Positions 553-7,762 of a DNA stretch of 9,826 nt are shown here, one piece after another. The translations under genes and the position numbers were made by a program. Positions within the stretch are counted from its first letter, which is position 1. Each line of letters starts with the position of its first letter. This stretch comes from Bacillus sp. ISL-7 (GTDB lineage: Bacteria; Bacillota; Bacilli; Bacillales_B; DSM-18226): NCBI RefSeq assembly GCF_018613065.1, contig NZ_JAGGQW010000070.1, positions 1-9,826 of the forward strand, written 5' to 3'. The notes beneath the pieces were generated by a model that worked only from the letters and a program-made list of their open reading frames with translations, ran no database searches and had not been told where the DNA came from.

Positions 553-600
553 GTGGAATTGAAAAAAACAATTGATATGGTTTATTCCTTTAAACAATGA
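553..600 (+). CDS. possible 15-codon leader ORF coupled to the YitT-family gene
   Basis: A strong Shine-Dalgarno GAGGAGGT (539-546) is followed six bases later by GTG at 553, which opens a 15-codon frame (MELKKTIDMVYSFKQ) ending in TGA at 598-600. That stop overlaps the ATG of the next gene as ATGA (597-600). The next gene has no Shine-Dalgarno of its own, and an in-frame TAA at 591-593 prevents an upstream start, so translation is probably passed on from this ORF. An ATG at 551 in another frame meets a stop after three codons and is the competing reading. The peptide resembles nothing I know; its role is inferred from position only. Confidence 0.5.
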   Translation: MELKKTIDMVYSFKQ

Positions 601-1214
601 AAAGAACTTATTTAACCTATTTCTGCATTTTATTTGGGGCTACCCTTCAGGGCATGTCGATGTCCTTGTTTTTATTTCCTCACTCCATCCCTTCCGGCGG
701 GGCAGCAGGACTTGCGATCTTGGTAAATCACTGGTTTCATTTATCTCTTGGTTTCTCTTTATGGCTATCTAATATTGTTTTTCTACTTTTCGCTTTAAAG
801 TATTTTGGATACACCTGGACCATTCGAACGATTCTTTCGGTTGCTATTACCTCCACGACAGTAACTTTTCTAACAGCCCTAGTTCCACATCTTCATATCC
901 ATATCATGGTGGATATACTATGTGGAAGTGTTTTCTTTGGTATTGGTGTAGGATTATTGATTCGAGCGGGGGCATCCAGCGGTGGAATGGTCATTCCTGC
1001 ATTAATGATCGCTTCCTATAAGAAATGGAGTCCCGGAAAAGTAATGATGGGAATAAACTTTTTGATTTTTTTATTAACCGCCCTTGTGATTGATTATAAA
1101 ATTGTTATTTTCGCAGTTATTTGCCAATTCTTTTCAACGAATATCATTGATTTTATTTTTGAATTAAAATTACAAAAAATAAGATTCCTAACGACGAATT
1201 GGAGAAAAAGATAA
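597..1214 (+). CDS. YitT/YczE-family integral membrane protein
   Basis: The 205-residue product is hydrophobic almost throughout, with about five membrane segments. It starts with the family pattern of an aromatic first helix, then a proline and SGGAAGLAIL (residues ~33-42), and has a second glycine-rich stretch, GIGVGLLIRAGASSGG (~116-131). This fits the UPF0750/YitT type. It lacks the C-terminal soluble DUF2179 domain of the ~280-residue members, so it resembles short members such as B. subtilis YitE, whose gene, as I recall, also lies beside sulfolactate genes. Transport substrate is unknown. The start at 597 is forced by TAA at 591-593 and appears coupled to the short ORF before it. The gene converges on cysC with only eight bases between stops. 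Confidence 0.85.
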   Translation: MKRTYLTYFCILFGATLQGMSMSLFLFPHSIPSGGAAGLAILVNHWFHLSLGFSLWLSNIVFLLFALKYFGYTWTIRTILSVAITSTTVTFLTALVPHLHIHIMVDILCGSVFFGIGVGLLIRAGASSGGMVIPALMIASYKKWSPGKVMMGINFLIFLLTALVIDYKIVIFAVICQFFSTNIIDFIFELKLQKIRFLTTNWRKR

Positions 1215-1236
1215 GAAGATCCCTAAAGAATCTTCT
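1201..1236 (-). terminator. probable terminator of the comA-cysC operon
   Basis: On the minus strand AGAAGAT (1236-1230) and ATCTTCT (1220-1214) form a 7-bp stem around a 9-base loop that contains the cysC stop codon, followed by the U-rich TATCTTTTTCTCC (1213-1201). The hairpin overlaps the last codon and stop of the convergent YitT-family gene. Stem strength is modest; on the plus strand no U tract follows, so it would act mainly on the minus-strand operon. Confidence 0.45.
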
Positions 1237-1822
1237 CTTCCTTTAAATAGGCTATAATTTTTTCAACTGATTGATCAAGTGTCATTGTATCAGTTTCAAT
1301 CATGATTTCTGGATCATTTGGCACCTCATACGGAGAGGATATTCCCGTAAAGTCAGGGATTTCTCCTTTTCTTGCTTTTTTATATAGACCTTTTGGGTCC
1401 CGGTCTTCACAGATATTGATAGGACAATTCAAAAATATTTCAATAAATTCGCGGGGTTCAAACATATTTCGAACAAGCTGCCGATCATCAAGAAATGGAG
1501 AAATAAATGCAGAAGAAACAATCAGGCCGCTGTCAACAAACAGTTTTGCCACTTCCCCGATTCTCCGAATGTTTTCTCTTCTGTCCCCAATCCCAAAACT
1601 TAAATCACTATTTAGCCCGTGGCGAATATTATCACCGTCCAAAACATAGCTCATAATTTTTTGTTGATACAAAGCATGATCAACAGCATTAGCCAAGGTA
1701 GATTTTCCTGATCCAGATAAACCTGTAAACCACAATACACAGCTTTTATGCCCATTTAATAGGTAGCGATCTGTTTTTTTTACCGTTGACTGATGCCAAA
1801 TAATATTCTTACTATTTCCCAT
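1223..1822 (-). CDS. cysC: adenylylsulfate (APS) kinase
   Basis: Phosphorylates adenosine 5'-phosphosulfate with ATP to give PAPS, in the cytoplasm. The 199-residue protein has the family's normal length. Visible signatures are the Walker A loop GLSGSGKST (34-42), DGDNIR (62-67), the arginine-rich GDRRENIRR (79-87), ISPF (107-110) and the lid segment with GLYKKARKGEI (145-155) and FTGISSPYE (158-166). It is the last gene of the operon, 35 bases after sat, with a modest ribosome binding site (AAGGGTGA). Its presence beside a CysH that carries iron-sulfur cysteines is notable, because such reductases can use APS directly; the PAPS branch may be an alternative substrate route. B. subtilis has a comparable enzyme, YisZ, in its sulfolactate region. 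Confidence 0.97.
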   Translation of the reverse strand: MGNSKNIIWHQSTVKKTDRYLLNGHKSCVLWFTGLSGSGKSTLANAVDHALYQQKIMSYVLDGDNIRHGLNSDLSFGIGDRRENIRRIGEVAKLFVDSGLIVSSAFISPFLDDRQLVRNMFEPREFIEIFLNCPINICEDRDPKGLYKKARKGEIPDFTGISSPYEVPNDPEIMIETDTMTLDQSVEKIIAYLKEEKIL

Positions 1823-1857: not shown

Positions 1858-3027
1858 TTAAGGGGTCTCCAAACGGCGGGTTTCATCTAAGTAGGCTTCT
1901 TTCATTCCTTGGATTAGAATTTCAACCACTTCTGGCCGGCTAAATTCCTTTGGCGGCTGTTCCCCGTTTTTTAACATACCTCTAACTTTTGTACCTGATA
2001 AAATTACGTGTTGCTTTGAATCATGTGGGCATGTTTTTTCAGAGGCCATGTTTTCACATTTTTTACAATAAAAGCTATGTTCAAAAAAGAGCGGTTTAAT
2101 GCCGAGTTCTTCGTTTGTGAAGTGACTAAATATTTTTTGGGCATCATATGTTCCATAATAGTTTCCTACTCCGGCATGATCTCTCCCTACTATAAAATGA
2201 GTACATCCAAAATTTTTCCGGACGATGGCATGAAAGATTGCTTCCCTAGGCCCAGCATATCTCATCGCGGCAGGAAAAACAGAAAGGAACACCCGATCCT
2301 TCGGGTAATAATTTTCGATTAAGACTTGATAGCTTTTCATACGGATTTCACCAGGAATATCATCCGATTTGGTCTCACCCATCAACGGATTTAAGAAAAG
2401 CCCATCGACATTCTCTAATGCTGTTTTTTGTATATATTCATGGGCCCGGTGCACGGGATTTCGAGTTTGGAAACCAACTACCGTTTTCCAACCGAATCTC
2501 CTAAACTGCTTCCTTGTTTGGATGGGGTCCAAATAATAGCTTTCAAACTTACTTTTCTCAGGTCTTTTTATCAGGGTAATGGGACCTCCGAGATAGATCT
2601 CCGGTCGTTCTAACAGCCTTTTAACCCCTGGGTGATGAATATCGGTTGTTCTGTATACCATCTCAGCTTCAAACTTTTTATCAGGGATAAATAATTCCTT
2701 CACCTCCATTACACCATACACAGTGCCATTATGGATTAGATTGATCATCTCACCGGTTTTAAGTTCCTTCGCTTTATCTTTGTTGATAGATAATGTAATC
2801 GGTAACGACCACGGAAGTCCATTGATCAGCCTCATATTGCTAACTACTGAATTATAGTCAGATAGACCCATAAACCCAGTTAGCGGACTATAGGCTCCAT
2901 TTGCAATTAACTCTAAATCACTTAATTCTAAATTACCTAATTCTATATAGTTACGAGTGTAATCAATTGGAGTATTTAGGTTAATCCTATTTACCAATTC
3001 ACCCCCATGGGGGACACTTTCACTCAT
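1858..3027 (-). CDS. sat: sulfate adenylyltransferase (ATP sulfurylase)
   Basis: Activates sulfate with ATP to APS and pyrophosphate, the entry step of the operon's pathway. The 389-residue protein shows the ATP-binding [11 protein letters not shown] (187-197), the conserved MRYAGPREA (255-263), GRDHAGVG (281-288) and [10 protein letters not shown] (343-352). A CxxC...CPH cluster (C321, C324, C333, H335) fits the metal-binding site of bacterial monomer-type enzymes. The N-terminal PHGGELVNR (6-14) matches the usual start region of Bacillus Sat and supports the ATG at 3027, which has a strong GGGAGGGAG site four bases upstream. It lies 43 bases after cysH and 35 before cysC. No APS-kinase domain is fused to it. 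Confidence 0.97.
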
Positions 3028-3070: not shown

Positions 3071-3781
3071 TTATGCTTCATGGAGTCCGCATTCAGTTTT
3101 CGATTGACCAGCCCACCGTCCGGAACGAGAGTCTCTTGAATCTGCGACAGGCTTTGTACAGGGAGCACAGCCAATACTTGGGTACCCTTTATCGTGTAAG
3201 GAATTGTAGGGTAAATGATTTAGATGGATATAAGTCATAATGTCTTCCCATGACCAGTGAATAAGGGGACAAATTTTTATTTTCTTAAATTTTTCATCCT
3301 TATTTATATATTGGGTGTTACTCCTTATGGTGGATTGGCCTCGCCTTAAACCTGAGATCCATGCTTCAACATCCTGTAATGCTTCCTTTAGAGGAACCAC
3401 CTTTCTTAAATGACAGCACAGATTGGGGTTACTCTGCCACAATTCGTCTCCATACCATTTGGTTTGTTCATCCAACGATACCCTAGGTTTAATAAGCTCG
3501 ATTTGCAGCGATGGGTACCTGTTCCTAACTTCCTCAATTAATTGATAAGTTTCTGGAAAGTGGAGGCCGGTATCGAGGAAAATAATTTTCGCATTTTTAT
3601 TTACTTTATGAATTAAATCGATTAAGACAATTCCCTCTGCGCCAAAGCTGCACGAATAGACAATTCTCTCTCCATAATTTTGGTATGCCCATTTTAAAAT
3701 ATCTAGAAAATCGCGAGGATGGTCCAAAAGGGTACCTACCTTTTTTTCATCCCAATTTTCATACGTCAACAGATCTGACAA
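3071..3781 (-). CDS. cysH: APS/PAPS reductase (thioredoxin-dependent, 4Fe-4S type)
   Basis: Reduces activated sulfate (APS and/or PAPS) to sulfite. The 236-residue protein has the PP-loop-like SCSFGAEG (43-50), FLDTGLHFPET (68-78), the paired cysteines CC (122-123) and CAPC (205-208) that bind a [4Fe-4S] cluster in APS-using enzymes, RSGRWAG (219-225), and the catalytic cysteine in ECGLH (C231). All key residues are present. The start is TTG at 3781, preceded by GAGGTGA with six bases of spacing; there is no better ATG in frame. It lies 19 bases downstream of the phosphatase gene. No sulfite reductase accompanies it, so its sulfite is probably handed to the ComA reaction encoded in the same operon. 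Confidence 0.96.
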   Translation of the reverse strand: MSDLLTYENWDEKKVGTLLDHPRDFLDILKWAYQNYGERIVYSCSFGAEGIVLIDLIHKVNKNAKIIFLDTGLHFPETYQLIEEVRNRYPSLQIELIKPRVSLDEQTKWYGDELWQSNPNLCCHLRKVVPLKEALQDVEAWISGLRRGQSTIRSNTQYINKDEKFKKIKICPLIHWSWEDIMTYIHLNHLPYNSLHDKGYPSIGCAPCTKPVADSRDSRSGRWAGQSKTECGLHEA

Positions 3782-3800: not shown

Positions 3801-4346
3801 CTATCCTCGAAGATTGGAATTCATTGCTAGTGTAATACAGGCATTGTTTTCGACAATTATTTTATTCATGTGATTAACATCGCCAAACTGCGAATAAGAA
3901 ATCATTGCCCTAATCCACGATCCATGGCCGAACACTAAAATATTGGACAACTTCTTATATTTTTCGATAAACAAAACAACCCTTTCTTCTAAATTCTTAA
4001 TACTTTCTCCTAACACAAGATCTTTTGGATTATTAATCCAAAGCTCACGATATTTCTCGAAAAGTTCTTCCTTTGGACGCCCTTCAAATGGACCAAAATC
4101 TAATTCATCTAATAAACCCTCTGTTTGGCATGCGTGGCCATATAGCTGAGCTGTTTGATGAGTTCGTTTTAGGGTGCTGGCCAAAACAAGTTCAAATGGT
4201 GCTAATTTTTTCAGCCGCAGCTTATTCTCTGCTATTCCTAAATATAATTCATCTGTTAATGGGGATAGTTCTATATCTCTCCTGCCTTGCAGCCAGGTTT
4301 TTTTATTCCATTCTGTGGGAAGATGTCTAATTAGCGTTATTTGCAT
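3801..4346 (-). CDS. histidine phosphatase superfamily protein; candidate phosphosulfolactate phosphatase
   Basis: The 181-residue protein belongs to the phosphoglycerate-mutase-like histidine phosphatases. Catalytic residues are visible: R7-H8 in LIRHLPTEWN, R61 in STLKRTHQTA, acid E81 in DELDFGPFEG and the second histidine H141 in FGHGSWIRA. The usual RHGETEWN is altered to RHLPTEWN. Its ATG lies inside the 3' end of comA (10-base overlap) with GGAGGG six bases upstream, so the two are probably translationally coupled; cysH follows after 19 bases. The known next enzyme after ComA is ComB, 2-phosphosulfolactate phosphatase, an unrelated fold absent from the window. I infer that this protein does that step. 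It could instead be a general or alpha-ribazole-type phosphatase. Family assignment is firm, substrate is inference. Confidence 0.85.
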   Translation of the reverse strand: MQITLIRHLPTEWNKKTWLQGRRDIELSPLTDELYLGIAENKLRLKKLAPFELVLASTLKRTHQTAQLYGHACQTEGLLDELDFGPFEGRPKEELFEKYRELWINNPKDLVLGESIKNLEERVVLFIEKYKKLSNILVFGHGSWIRAMISYSQFGDVNHMNKIIVENNACITLAMNSNLRG

Positions 4347-5098
4347 TCATTTCCCTCCAAAAAAAATGTTTCACTTCTTAGACCACAGCGTTGCGCTTCT
4401 AATATTAGTACATCTCGTATTTTCACATTTCCTAAATTGACATTCGGTCCAATTTCTTTAATAAAATACATTTGATGTTTTGCCGATGGTGCTTCAAAGA
4501 TGATTTTTTTGCTGTCAATACCTCTGACCAACTCTTGAATTAAATCAGATTTAATATCACCGCATTTTTCATAAATACCTGAAGTTCCAGAATCCCTGCC
4601 TTCTGTAATCACATATTCACAACCTGCTTCTAAGAAGAGCATTATCTCTTCTTTCCATCCACAGATAGACATTTCTTGATTAGGATCCTTGGACCCAACT
4701 TCTGCGATTACATGAAAGTCATTTTTTAATTGTGAAATTAAACGGAGGCGTTCATTTATTGGGATATCTAGTGTCCCATTAGATATTTCGAGCCATTCAA
4801 TCCCTAAATCCTGTAAAAAGGATAAATATTCAGGAATTTTTTTTTGGTAAAAACATTTTTCAAATAATGTACCCCCACAATAAGTCCTAATATGATATTC
4901 CTTGTAAAGCCGAACCTTTTCCTTTATGTTTGGCGTTACATAAGCTGAACCAATCCCGATCTTAGCTATATCAATAAAGCGGCCATAATCAGCTAAGATA
5001 TTCTTTAATTCTCCCATCGGGGTTCCCGTATCTATCACAGAAGTTAGACCGTATGATCTAATTCCTGAAGTCCTTTCGGGAATGGTTAAAAAACTCAT
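4337..5098 (-). CDS. comA: phosphosulfolactate synthase (ComA family)
   Basis: Adds sulfite to phosphoenolpyruvate to form (R)-2-phospho-3-sulfolactate, a magnesium-dependent reaction of the ComA family. This family was first described in methanogen coenzyme M synthesis and is also found in Bacillus (YitD-type). The 253-residue length is typical. Motifs seen are DTG (23-25), AKIGIGSA (45-52), GGTLFE (75-80), LEISNGT (103-109), EVGSKD (133-138), TEGRDSG (165-171), FEAP (201-204) and NVNLGNV (219-225). The ATG at 5098 has GAGGAGG ten bases upstream. It is the first gene of the minus-strand operon and overlaps the phosphatase gene. The symbol comA here is the coenzyme M name and has nothing to do with the competence regulator ComA. 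In a spore former the likely product is spore sulfolactate, not coenzyme M. Confidence 0.94.
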   Translation of the reverse strand: MSFLTIPERTSGIRSYGLTSVIDTGTPMGELKNILADYGRFIDIAKIGIGSAYVTPNIKEKVRLYKEYHIRTYCGGTLFEKCFYQKKIPEYLSFLQDLGIEWLEISNGTLDIPINERLRLISQLKNDFHVIAEVGSKDPNQEMSICGWKEEIMLFLEAGCEYVITEGRDSGTSGIYEKCGDIKSDLIQELVRGIDSKKIIFEAPSAKHQMYFIKEIGPNVNLGNVKIRDVLILEAQRCGLRSETFFLEGNECK

Positions 5099-5135
5099 AG
5101 GGAATGCGCCTCCTCTATTTTTCTAGGATAGATTA

Positions 5136-5164
5136 TTCAAAAAATGGGTGAATGTGTATATAAT
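5136..5164 (+). promoter_or_regulatory. sigma-A-type promoter for the MFS transporter gene
   Basis: A -35 TTCAAA (5136-5141) and a perfect -10 TATAAT (5159-5164) are separated by 17 bases. The expected transcript starts near 5171 and leaves a ~100-base untranslated leader before the TTG at 5272. I saw no known riboswitch class in that leader, only a short CCTAGG palindrome (5176-5181) and a tandem ACAGTT pair just before the ribosome binding site. Confidence 0.6.
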
Positions 5165-5271: not shown

Positions 5272-6516
5272 TTGCCAAAGCAAAAGCATAAAGGCTTGAC
5301 GATTACTGCAATCGGTTCAATCCCACTTATTTTGGTGTTAGGAAACTCAATGTTAATCCCAATTCTTCCAAAAATGAAATCAGAACTAAATATTACTCAA
5401 TTTCAGACTAGCTTAATTATCTCAGTATTTTCGATTGCAGCGGCAATATCTATACCTGTTTTAGGATATTTATCTGACCGTTTTTCACGAAAAGCAATTA
5501 TTATCCCAGCTCTTATCGTGTATGGCAGCGGGGGTCTTTTAGCTGGTGCTGCAGCAGCCTGGTTCTCCAATCCGTATACATGGATACTTGCCGGGAGAGT
5601 TTTACAAGGGATTGGTGCTGCTGGTACGGCTCCAATTGCCATGGCATTGGCAGGCGATTTATTTAAGGGTGGCGAACAAAGTAAGGTTTTAGGCTTAGTG
5701 GAAGCATCGAATGGATTCGGAAAGGTTATAAGCCCAATTATCGGTTCGCTTCTAGCACTTCTGTTTTGGTATGCTGCATTTTTTGCCTTCCCGATTTTTT
5801 GTGCGATGTCAGTTCTCTTCACCATCTTTTTTATCAAGGAAAAAAAGGCAGAAAAAGAACCTCCTCCTTTGGGAAAATATGTGAAGGGTCTTGTATCAGT
5901 TTTTAAAACAGAAGGACGCTGGTTATTTGCAGCATATTTCACAGGTGCCTCCTGCCTTTTTACACTATTTGGGATTTTGTTTTATATATCCGATATTCTC
6001 GAGAAAGATCATCAGATTGATGGTTTACTAAAAGGTGCAATTTTAGCGATCCCCCTTTTATTTATGACAACAACCTCCTATTTTACAGGCAGTAATATCG
6101 GAAAAAAAATGAAAGTAATGAAAAGATTAATTGTCATCGGCTGTTTATTAATGACTGCTTCCTTTGCATCATTGGTCTTCTTTACAAATTTACTTCCATT
6201 TTTTGCTGTCTTAGTCATAAGCAGTATTGGAACTGGTCTCGTTCTTCCTTGTATTAATAGCTTTATTACTGGTTCCGTACCGGCAGACCGGCGTGGATTC
6301 GTTACCTCTCTATATGGATCCGTTAGATTTTTAGGTGTTGCCATTGGTCCACCTATTTTTGGGGCATTAATGGAATGGTCCCGTTCAGGGATGTTCTTAT
6401 CTACAGCAGGTTTAACATTGTTATGTGGATTGCTTTCCATGATTCTCATACATGTTGCTAAAAAGGAGCCTTCAGAAGAAAGTGATTCATTGTTTGAAAA
6501 ATTATCCTTCACATAA
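5272..6516 (+). CDS. major facilitator superfamily transporter (YitG-like)
   Basis: The 414-residue product is a 12-helix MFS protein of drug/solute antiporter type. The loop 2-3 motif A is [11 protein letters not shown] (64-74), the fourth-to-fifth helix region has [13 protein letters not shown] (~109-121), and a charged loop ([11 protein letters not shown], ~189-199) separates the two six-helix halves. A related loop, PADRRGF, lies in the C-terminal half. The start is TTG at 5272 with AGGGGTG nine bases upstream; no ATG gives a full first helix. It diverges from the comA operon across ~170 bases. B. subtilis carries an MFS gene, yitG, at the end of its sulfolactate region, so sulfolactate movement, for example into the forespore or out of the cell, is a reasonable guess. 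Substrate is not determinable from sequence. Confidence 0.88.
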
Positions 6517-6969: not shown

Positions 6970-6997
6970 GATTAGATATATTCGGGGTGTGCGTGTA

Positions 6998-7762
6998 ATG
7001 AGCATGGGGATTATTGTAATGGGTCTTTTAATCGGCTTTATGGTCGGATTAACAGGTGTTGGAGGGGCCGCTTTGTTGACTCCAATTTTAATTTTATTAG
7101 GTATCAGCCCTTCAATTGCGGTAGGTACTGATCTTGTTTATAACTCCATAACTAAACTTTTTGGTTCAATTCAACATTGGAGGCAGAAGACGATAAATTT
7201 CAAGTTAGTAAAGTATCTAGCGATTGGGAGTATTCCAAGTGCGATCTGTGCAGTAGGCGTTCTCCATTTATTTGATTCTTTTTTTCATAACCAAGAAGTG
7301 GTGATTAAACACGCATTGGGTTACGTTTTAATATTGGTAGCATTGACTACCTTGTTTAAAACATTTATGAAAAATAAATTAGAATGGAATCATTTTCAAA
7401 AGAAGCCGATCCACGAAAAACGGGGCTTAACCATTCTGATTGGTGCTATATTAGGTTTTATTGTAGGCTTGACATCGATAGGATCTGGTTCATTGTTTGC
7501 ATTAGCTATGATTTACTTGTACAGATTGAGAACTCCAGAATTGGTCGGAACCGATATCGCTCATGCCTTTTTATTAGTCTCCGCTGCAGGGATTATGCAC
7601 GCAGGATTCGGCAATGTTGATTATCTATTAGTGTTTAACCTTTTAATGGGGTCGATCCCTGGTGTCATATTAGGAAGCACCTTATCCTCTAAATTACCAG
7701 CAAAACCTCTAAGAACTATTATGGCAGTGATGATTTTGATTAGTGGGTTTAAACTAATTTAA
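6998..7762 (+). CDS. TauE/SafE-family membrane transporter
   Basis: A 254-residue polytopic protein with the internal duplication of the TauE/SafE (UPF0721) family. The first half carries GFMVGLTGVGGA with GTDLVYNSITK, and the second half repeats GFIVGLTSIGSGS with GTDIAHAFLL. Each half has about four membrane segments, separated by a basic cytoplasmic-looking loop. Members export sulfite, sulfoacetate or other organosulfur anions, or are uncharacterised. Beside genes that make sulfite and sulfolactate, sulfite or sulfonate export is a sensible guess. The frame opens with GTG at 6989, but GGGGTG (6984-6989) is eight bases from ATG 6998, which I prefer. It follows a terminator, so it is transcribed separately from the MFS gene, and it converges on the germination gene. 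Confidence 0.87.
   Translation: MSMGIIVMGLLIGFMVGLTGVGGAALLTPILILLGISPSIAVGTDLVYNSITKLFGSIQHWRQKTINFKLVKYLAIGSIPSAICAVGVLHLFDSFFHNQEVVIKHALGYVLILVALTTLFKTFMKNKLEWNHFQKKPIHEKRGLTILIGAILGFIVGLTSIGSGSLFALAMIYLYRLRTPELVGTDIAHAFLLVSAAGIMHAGFGNVDYLLVFNLLMGSIPGVILGSTLSSKLPAKPLRTIMAVMILISGFKLI

Follow-up and report, generated by a model that had tools for sequence, protein, structure and literature searches.

A histidine phosphatase gene in the place of comB in a predicted sulfolactate operon of Bacillus sp. ISL-7

Results

Organization of the comA locus

A 9,826-nucleotide stretch of Bacillus sp. ISL-7 (contig NZ_JAGGQW010000070.1 of assembly GCF_018613065.1; hereafter the window) carries, in order on the minus strand, comA, a histidine phosphatase gene (HP), cysH, sat and cysC, and HP is considered here as a candidate for the ComB step of the sulfolactate pathway. 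Pfam and NCBIfam profiles were concordant on the family of each of the five genes. ComA, a phosphosulfolactate synthase of 253 amino acids (4337..5098; PF02679, 261 bits against a cut-off of 25.2), is followed by HP, a proposed 2-phosphosulfolactate phosphatase of 181 amino acids (3801..4346). Downstream lie cysH, encoding (3'-phospho)adenosine 5'-phosphosulfate ((P)APS) reductase (3071..3781; TIGR00434, 307.6 bits), sat, encoding sulfate adenylyltransferase (1858..3027; NF003166, 579.1 bits), and cysC, encoding APS kinase (1223..1822; NF003013, 303.2 bits), the counterparts of yitB, yitA and yisZ. The coordinates of both open reading frames (ORFs) place a 10-bp overlap between the end of comA and the start of HP (4337..4346, minus strand), and together with the profile matches they confirm the preliminary description of a comA gene overlapping a 181-residue histidine phosphatase by 10 bases, with cysH–sat–cysC after it. 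The overlap likely reflects translational coupling.

For comparison with Bacillus subtilis, yitD, yitC, yitB, yitA and yisZ were taken to be comA, comB, cysH, sat and cysC, respectively. The window holds comA together with cysH, sat and cysC, as in the spore sulfolactate (yit) gene set. Since counterparts of the yitCD and yitBA–yisZ genes are present, the window gene set is the B. subtilis set with one gene replaced, HP standing at the place of ComB (YitC). The B. subtilis genes form two operons with a ComB phosphatase, whereas those of the window lie on one strand with a phosphatase of another family.

HP belongs to a distinct subfamily of branch 1 histidine phosphatases

HP matched PF00300 (His_Phos_1, histidine phosphatase superfamily branch 1) at 98 bits against a cut-off of 21.7, and no other Pfam family, including that of ComB (PF04029), was matched at E values up to 0.001. 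The catalytic set of branch 1 enzymes consists of an Arg-His pair, a second Arg, an acid/base Glu and a second His. In HP, Arg7, His8, Arg61, Glu81 and His141 were invariant in 64 of 64 aligned copies and common to 18 of 18 paralogous histidine phosphatases (20 were fetched, and two without a usable frame were left out). The structure predicted with AlphaFold 2 has the histidine phosphatase fold, with a mean predicted local distance difference test score of 95.4. The signature around the catalytic His8, RHLPTEWN (residues 7–14; 4305..4328, minus strand), is conserved in comA-linked copies: RHLPTxWN was present in 73 of the 75 named ones and RHLST in the other two, whereas all 18 paralogues, which come from the same order, have RHG in its place. 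On these alignments RHLPTEWN is not noise but the mark of a subfamily, as had been suggested when the locus was first described.

Two named functions were considered for HP and rejected on score. The highest-scoring NCBI family was CobC, α-ribazole phosphatase (TIGR03162), yet the score of 88.5 bits lies far under the curated cut-off of 162.9; the match to PspA phosphoserine phosphatase (NF045917) reached 49.4 bits against a curated cut-off of 350. In PHROGs a single unnamed family was matched (phrog_12933, 73.3 bits). Among 120 listed of 461 matches, those that are named carry unspecific public labels: "histidine phosphatase family protein," "broad specificity phosphatase PhoE" or "probable phosphoglycerate mutase."

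HP follows comA across loci

Neighborhoods were surveyed for the best 80 of 326 confirmed comA relatives, in which the window genes were located by blastp. HP lay directly after comA in 75 of these 80 named loci, so the arrangement is not due to chance. The two genes overlapped by 10–44 bp in 69 of the 75 loci and were separated by 1–21 bp in four, with two not placed; for these counts HP was assumed to begin at the most distant start codon lying no more than 13 codons upstream of the motif. At one further locus (L089) comA is followed by a degenerate HP remnant only; that strain has a further contig (L095) on which comA and HP are both present.

The full cysH–sat–cysC set followed in 52 of the 75 comA–HP loci, two of the three genes in two, cysH only in eight and none in 13. 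These counts refer to a fetched flank of about 8 kb downstream, and two of the cysH-only loci (L058 and L104) end within 2.3 kb of comA. The 13 loci without cys genes span Neobacillus mesonae, Siminovitchia, Robertmurraya and Bacillus. HP is thus kept beside comA even at loci that lack cysH, sat and cysC, and follows comA, not the sulfate genes; its retention across a clade in which several genera have no cys genes adds weight to the link. In the nearest relative (L057, from genome G001, 11240–11467) cysC, present in the window, is missing between sat and the YitT gene. Two loci titled Paenibacillus sp. BSR1-1 (L073) and Bacillus subtilis DE0224 (L079) also carry comA–HP, and these names may be wrong.

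HP and ComB exclude each other beside comA

Among 397 genomes of the order, 70 matched ComA, and two of these (G274 and G411) fell below the family cut-off and were left out. In the remaining 68, HP lay beside comA in 37 and ComB in 25; none had both, and six had neither (G431, G225, G417, G378, G327 and G408). The mutual exclusivity at comA raised in the preliminary description is therefore seen in this set. ComB was encoded on the strand opposite to comA in two of the 25 ComB-type genomes (G262 and G285); at the level of inspected ComB-type loci, the order was comB–comA in 13 of 15 and the strands were opposite in two, as against comA–HP in the window. HP orthologues (E up to 1e-25, at most eight candidates scored per genome) were found in 38 of the 397 genomes, and in 37 of these 38 HP lay beside comA. 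A set of 60 close relatives, overlapping the 397 genomes and compared by eye, gave HP beside comA in 21 of 22 comA genomes, with ComB there instead in the last (G041); 10 of the 21 comA–HP genomes showed no ComB.

No ComB was found anywhere in 23 of the 37 comA–HP genomes of the order, two of the 23 being incomplete (G215, 87%; G241, 80%); the other 14 carry a distant ComB-family gene, and these include the nearest genome, G001, which has 40% of sampled 31-mers in common with the window and an HP 96% identical. In G001 this gene lies among genes resembling those for a TetR regulator, coenzyme A (CoA) ligase, enoyl-CoA hydratase and quinone reductase, functions that were read by eye from the N termini, and a like cluster with a distant ComB is also present in G013 and G029, which have no comA. 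As the real enzyme, the distant ComB was rejected on two grounds: it was not found in 23 of the 37 genomes, and its cluster looks unrelated in G001, G029, G013 and G059. Given its gene context, the G001 gene probably has no part in the sulfolactate pathway.

ComA phylogeny

A ComA tree of 94 rows after thinning was built by a quick method, with Shimodaira–Hasegawa-like approximate likelihood ratio test support only and a midpoint root. HP-linked ComA forms one clade (support 100), which also holds three Lederbergia-type rows and L089. The adjoining clade (support 98) comprises 13 of the 14 ComB-linked rows and four rows without a ComB neighbor; the 14th ComB-linked row (L143) is placed elsewhere. 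From its nested position within the HP clade, the Lederbergia-type clade appears to have since lost HP; in this clade the step is either handled by some other phosphatase or not needed. Taxonomic families f1, f41 and f42 hold both HP and ComB types (f15 also does, doubtfully, with ComB on the opposite strand), and ComA and the phosphatase thus change together across species, which adds weight to the link; the two genes seem to move as one unit.

Neighborhoods of the two types overlap in part. The comB–comA loci L145 and L147 adjoin a divergent cysH–sat–cysC and have YitT-family and major facilitator superfamily (MFS) neighbors as in the window; L045 and L151 have YitT and a 96-amino acid gene in common with it, L151 the MFS gene also. 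The remaining inspected ComB-type loci have fewer or none of the window neighbors.

Promoter-like region and probable link to sporulation

A promoter-like block, TACAC-N15-GAATAATCTA, lies 30 bp upstream of comA (5129..5158, read on the minus strand from 5158 to 5129). The exact element CATANNNTA, which we take to be the σK −10 sequence, was not enriched upstream of comA (4 of 81 regions against a shuffled mean of 6.7). When the window was added to the 80 loci, 70 of the 81 upstream regions contained a broader pattern, TACAC-N13..18-ATANNNTA, against a mean of 0.11 after shuffling; because this pattern was defined after the sequences had been viewed, the count shows conservation, not σK use. 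Upstream of comB, a still looser pattern was present in 3 of 10 ComB-type loci. According to PMC517825, σK promoters consist of a 5-nucleotide −35 and a 10-nucleotide −10 element 14–16 nucleotides apart, and the layout of the TACAC block would fit this description. The same paper gives late-sporulation expression for B. subtilis yitCD and yitBA–yisZ, with an inferred role in phosphosulfolactate synthesis, and puts sulfolactate at about 5% of spore dry weight. The window resembles this system in its comA, cysH, sat and cysC counterparts and, through them, in the link to spore sulfolactate; by analogy, sporulation control of the comA–HP operon is likely.

Discussion

HP as a probable replacement for ComB

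Judged from sequence and gene context, HP most likely serves as a dedicated (2R)-phosphosulfolactate phosphatase and has taken the place of ComB, an enzyme of an unrelated family, in making sulfolactate. The order and linkage of the genes, the mutual exclusion of HP and ComB, the preserved catalytic residues and the predicted fold all point this way, and the original suggestion of a non-orthologous phosphatase in the ComB step is supported by genome context, namely linkage, exclusion with ComB and the near confinement of HP to comA genomes. HP resembles ComB (PF04029; B. subtilis YitC) in the proposed reaction, in its place beside comA and, in some loci, in having the same sulfite-forming neighbors, but belongs to an unrelated family.

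In the proposed pathway, Sat, CysC and CysH would convert sulfate to sulfite, and ComA would combine sulfite with phosphoenolpyruvate to give 2-phospho-3-sulfolactate. HP, presumably produced from the same mRNA as comA and coupled to it via the overlap, would strip the phosphate through a phospho-His8 intermediate, and the spore would then store the 3-sulfolactate formed. From what is general to the family, we assume that Arg7, Arg61 and His141 hold the phosphate and that Glu81 serves as acid/base.

Several observations weigh against this assignment. Lys or Arg at HP position 92 is found also in 7 of the 18 paralogues, and comA is missing from one genome (G045) whose HP carries the RHLPTEWN signature. 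Whether comA is paired with HP or with ComB follows a single split of ComA into two clades, so that the 68 genomes do not count as separate tests; the tree implies one old replacement rather than many, which would explain most of the exclusion. The window ComA scores under the cut-off of the archaeal ComA equivalog (TIGR03849; 221.3 against 280 bits) and a long stem (1.62 changes per column) leads to the HP-linked ComA clade, and on both counts the product could differ. Four Lederbergia-type loci (L112, L113, L116 and L127) run comA–cysH–sat–cysC without HP between, and neither an HP orthologue nor ComB was found in any of these four genomes, which keep comA. Outside the order, 77 comA-positive genomes were sampled (every second of 153): HP was found in none (E up to 1e-20) and ComB in 46, leaving 31 with neither, so not every comA genome has a phosphatase gene that can be recognized as dedicated.

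The alternative that survives best is that the HP-linked ComA clade makes another phosphorylated product and that HP dephosphorylates this compound instead of phosphosulfolactate. The long stem and the score below the archaeal cut-off would suit such a divergence, as would the 40% identity of the window ComA to a ComB-linked ComA (L001). However, the closest solved relative of the window ComA is itself a phosphosulfolactate synthase (PDB 1u83; 191 bits, E 1.3e-55), aligned over residues 4–247 of 253, the blocks GGTLFEK, EVGSK, E.R.SGT and IFEAP are conserved in both the window and the ComB-linked ComA, and the same sulfite-forming genes adjoin both types in some loci; we regard a different ComA product as very unlikely. 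Less likely still is a general or regulatory role for HP, with phosphosulfolactate handled by the distant ComB or by unspecific phosphatases. The distant gene in 14 of the 37 HP genomes, including G001, would accord with this, as would the retention of comA in the Lederbergia-type clade despite HP loss and the 31 of 77 genomes outside the order with neither phosphatase; against it, 23 of the 37 HP genomes showed no ComB, the G001 gene lies in its CoA-ligase/enoyl-CoA-hydratase/TetR-like cluster with a like gene in comA-less genomes, and HP, which overlaps comA, hardly occurs outside comA genomes. Least probable of all is that HP is a 3'-phosphoadenosine-5'-phosphate phosphatase clearing the by-product of PAPS reduction by CysC/CysH, as its place between comA and cysH–sat–cysC and the full cys set after 52 of 75 comA–HP loci might suggest, because HP persists without any nearby cys gene in 13 of the 75 and the reverse also occurs, with comA and a full cys set but no HP in 4 of the 80 loci and with cysH–sat–cysC at the ComB-type loci L145, L147 and L149, from whose genomes the HP orthologue is absent.

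Taking HP as the phosphosulfolactate phosphatase, a broader picture is on balance favored: spore-forming Bacilli would hold two separately assembled sulfolactate modules, comB–comA and comA–HP, exchanged as units at a shared locus, with each ComA clade having its own unrelated phosphatase. HP would then be a second 2-phosphosulfolactate phosphatase family, recruited from the phosphoglycerate mutase superfamily because its substrate mimics 2-phosphoglycerate, and the comA lineages with neither phosphatase would imply a third solution.

Relation to known enzymes

PspA phosphoserine phosphatase of Hydrogenobacter (4ij5/4ij6), which we take to be a precedent for a histidine phosphatase in a pathway-specific step, differs from HP, being 24–25% identical. 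In Aquifex aeolicus, HFP of riboflavin synthesis (9mmh; PMC12051542) acts on another substrate and is 27% identical to HP. Histidine phosphatases in pathway-specific steps thus have precedent (9mmh); the kind is known and this instance is new. The remark in the preliminary description that no account of this replacement was known agrees with the literature search: of the open-licence papers listed, judged by title and abstract opening, none describes it. What is predicted here is a new function for a subfamily that has no name, and HP is a clear candidate for non-orthologous replacement.

If the assignment is correct, a substrate can be given to a family whose named members, among the matches listed, go by "histidine phosphatase," "PhoE" or "probable phosphoglycerate mutase"; genomes in which the sulfolactate pathway now seems one step short would have all of it, and spore sulfolactate becomes predictable in Neobacillus and its kin. 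The handover of a pathway step between enzyme families, with the partner enzyme diverging alongside, would be directly testable. The comA-positive Bacilli with neither phosphatase mark a gap in the pathway.

Flanking genes and other comA loci

The operon is flanked by a gene for a YitT-family membrane protein (597..1214, plus strand; PF02588, 133 bits). Divergent from comA lies an MFS transporter gene (5272..6516, plus strand; PF07690), a conserved comA neighbor whose nearest NCBI name is the bacillibactin exporter BcbE (452 versus 600 bits); it is a possible candidate for a sulfolactate transporter. Outside the order, this gene is 46–57% identical and directly adjoins comA in 9 of 15 class-level loci (19 were given, and comA was located in 15), with no HP or cys genes among the two genes on either side; an MFS–comA–small membrane gene (about 150 amino acids) layout recurs there. 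A TauE/SafE-type sulfite exporter gene (6989..7762, plus strand), near the sulfite-using operon, recurs beside many HP-type comA loci.

A small ORF of 132–138 amino acids, judged by eye to resemble vicinal oxygen chelate (VOC)/glyoxalase proteins, overlaps the end of ComB-type comA (L045, 5808–6206; L137, 5890–6306; both minus strand), and the cases include G431, a ComB-less genome. At L138 and L139 (G327 and G408) a divergent ComA of 24–25% identity, which probably has another function, overlaps a gene of another kind of about 490 amino acids. The lone HP orthologue of G045 (L051, 6377–6931, plus strand; 43–44% identity) has unrelated-looking neighbors and lies a few genes away from a glycerate-kinase-like gene, the kind of which was judged by eye.
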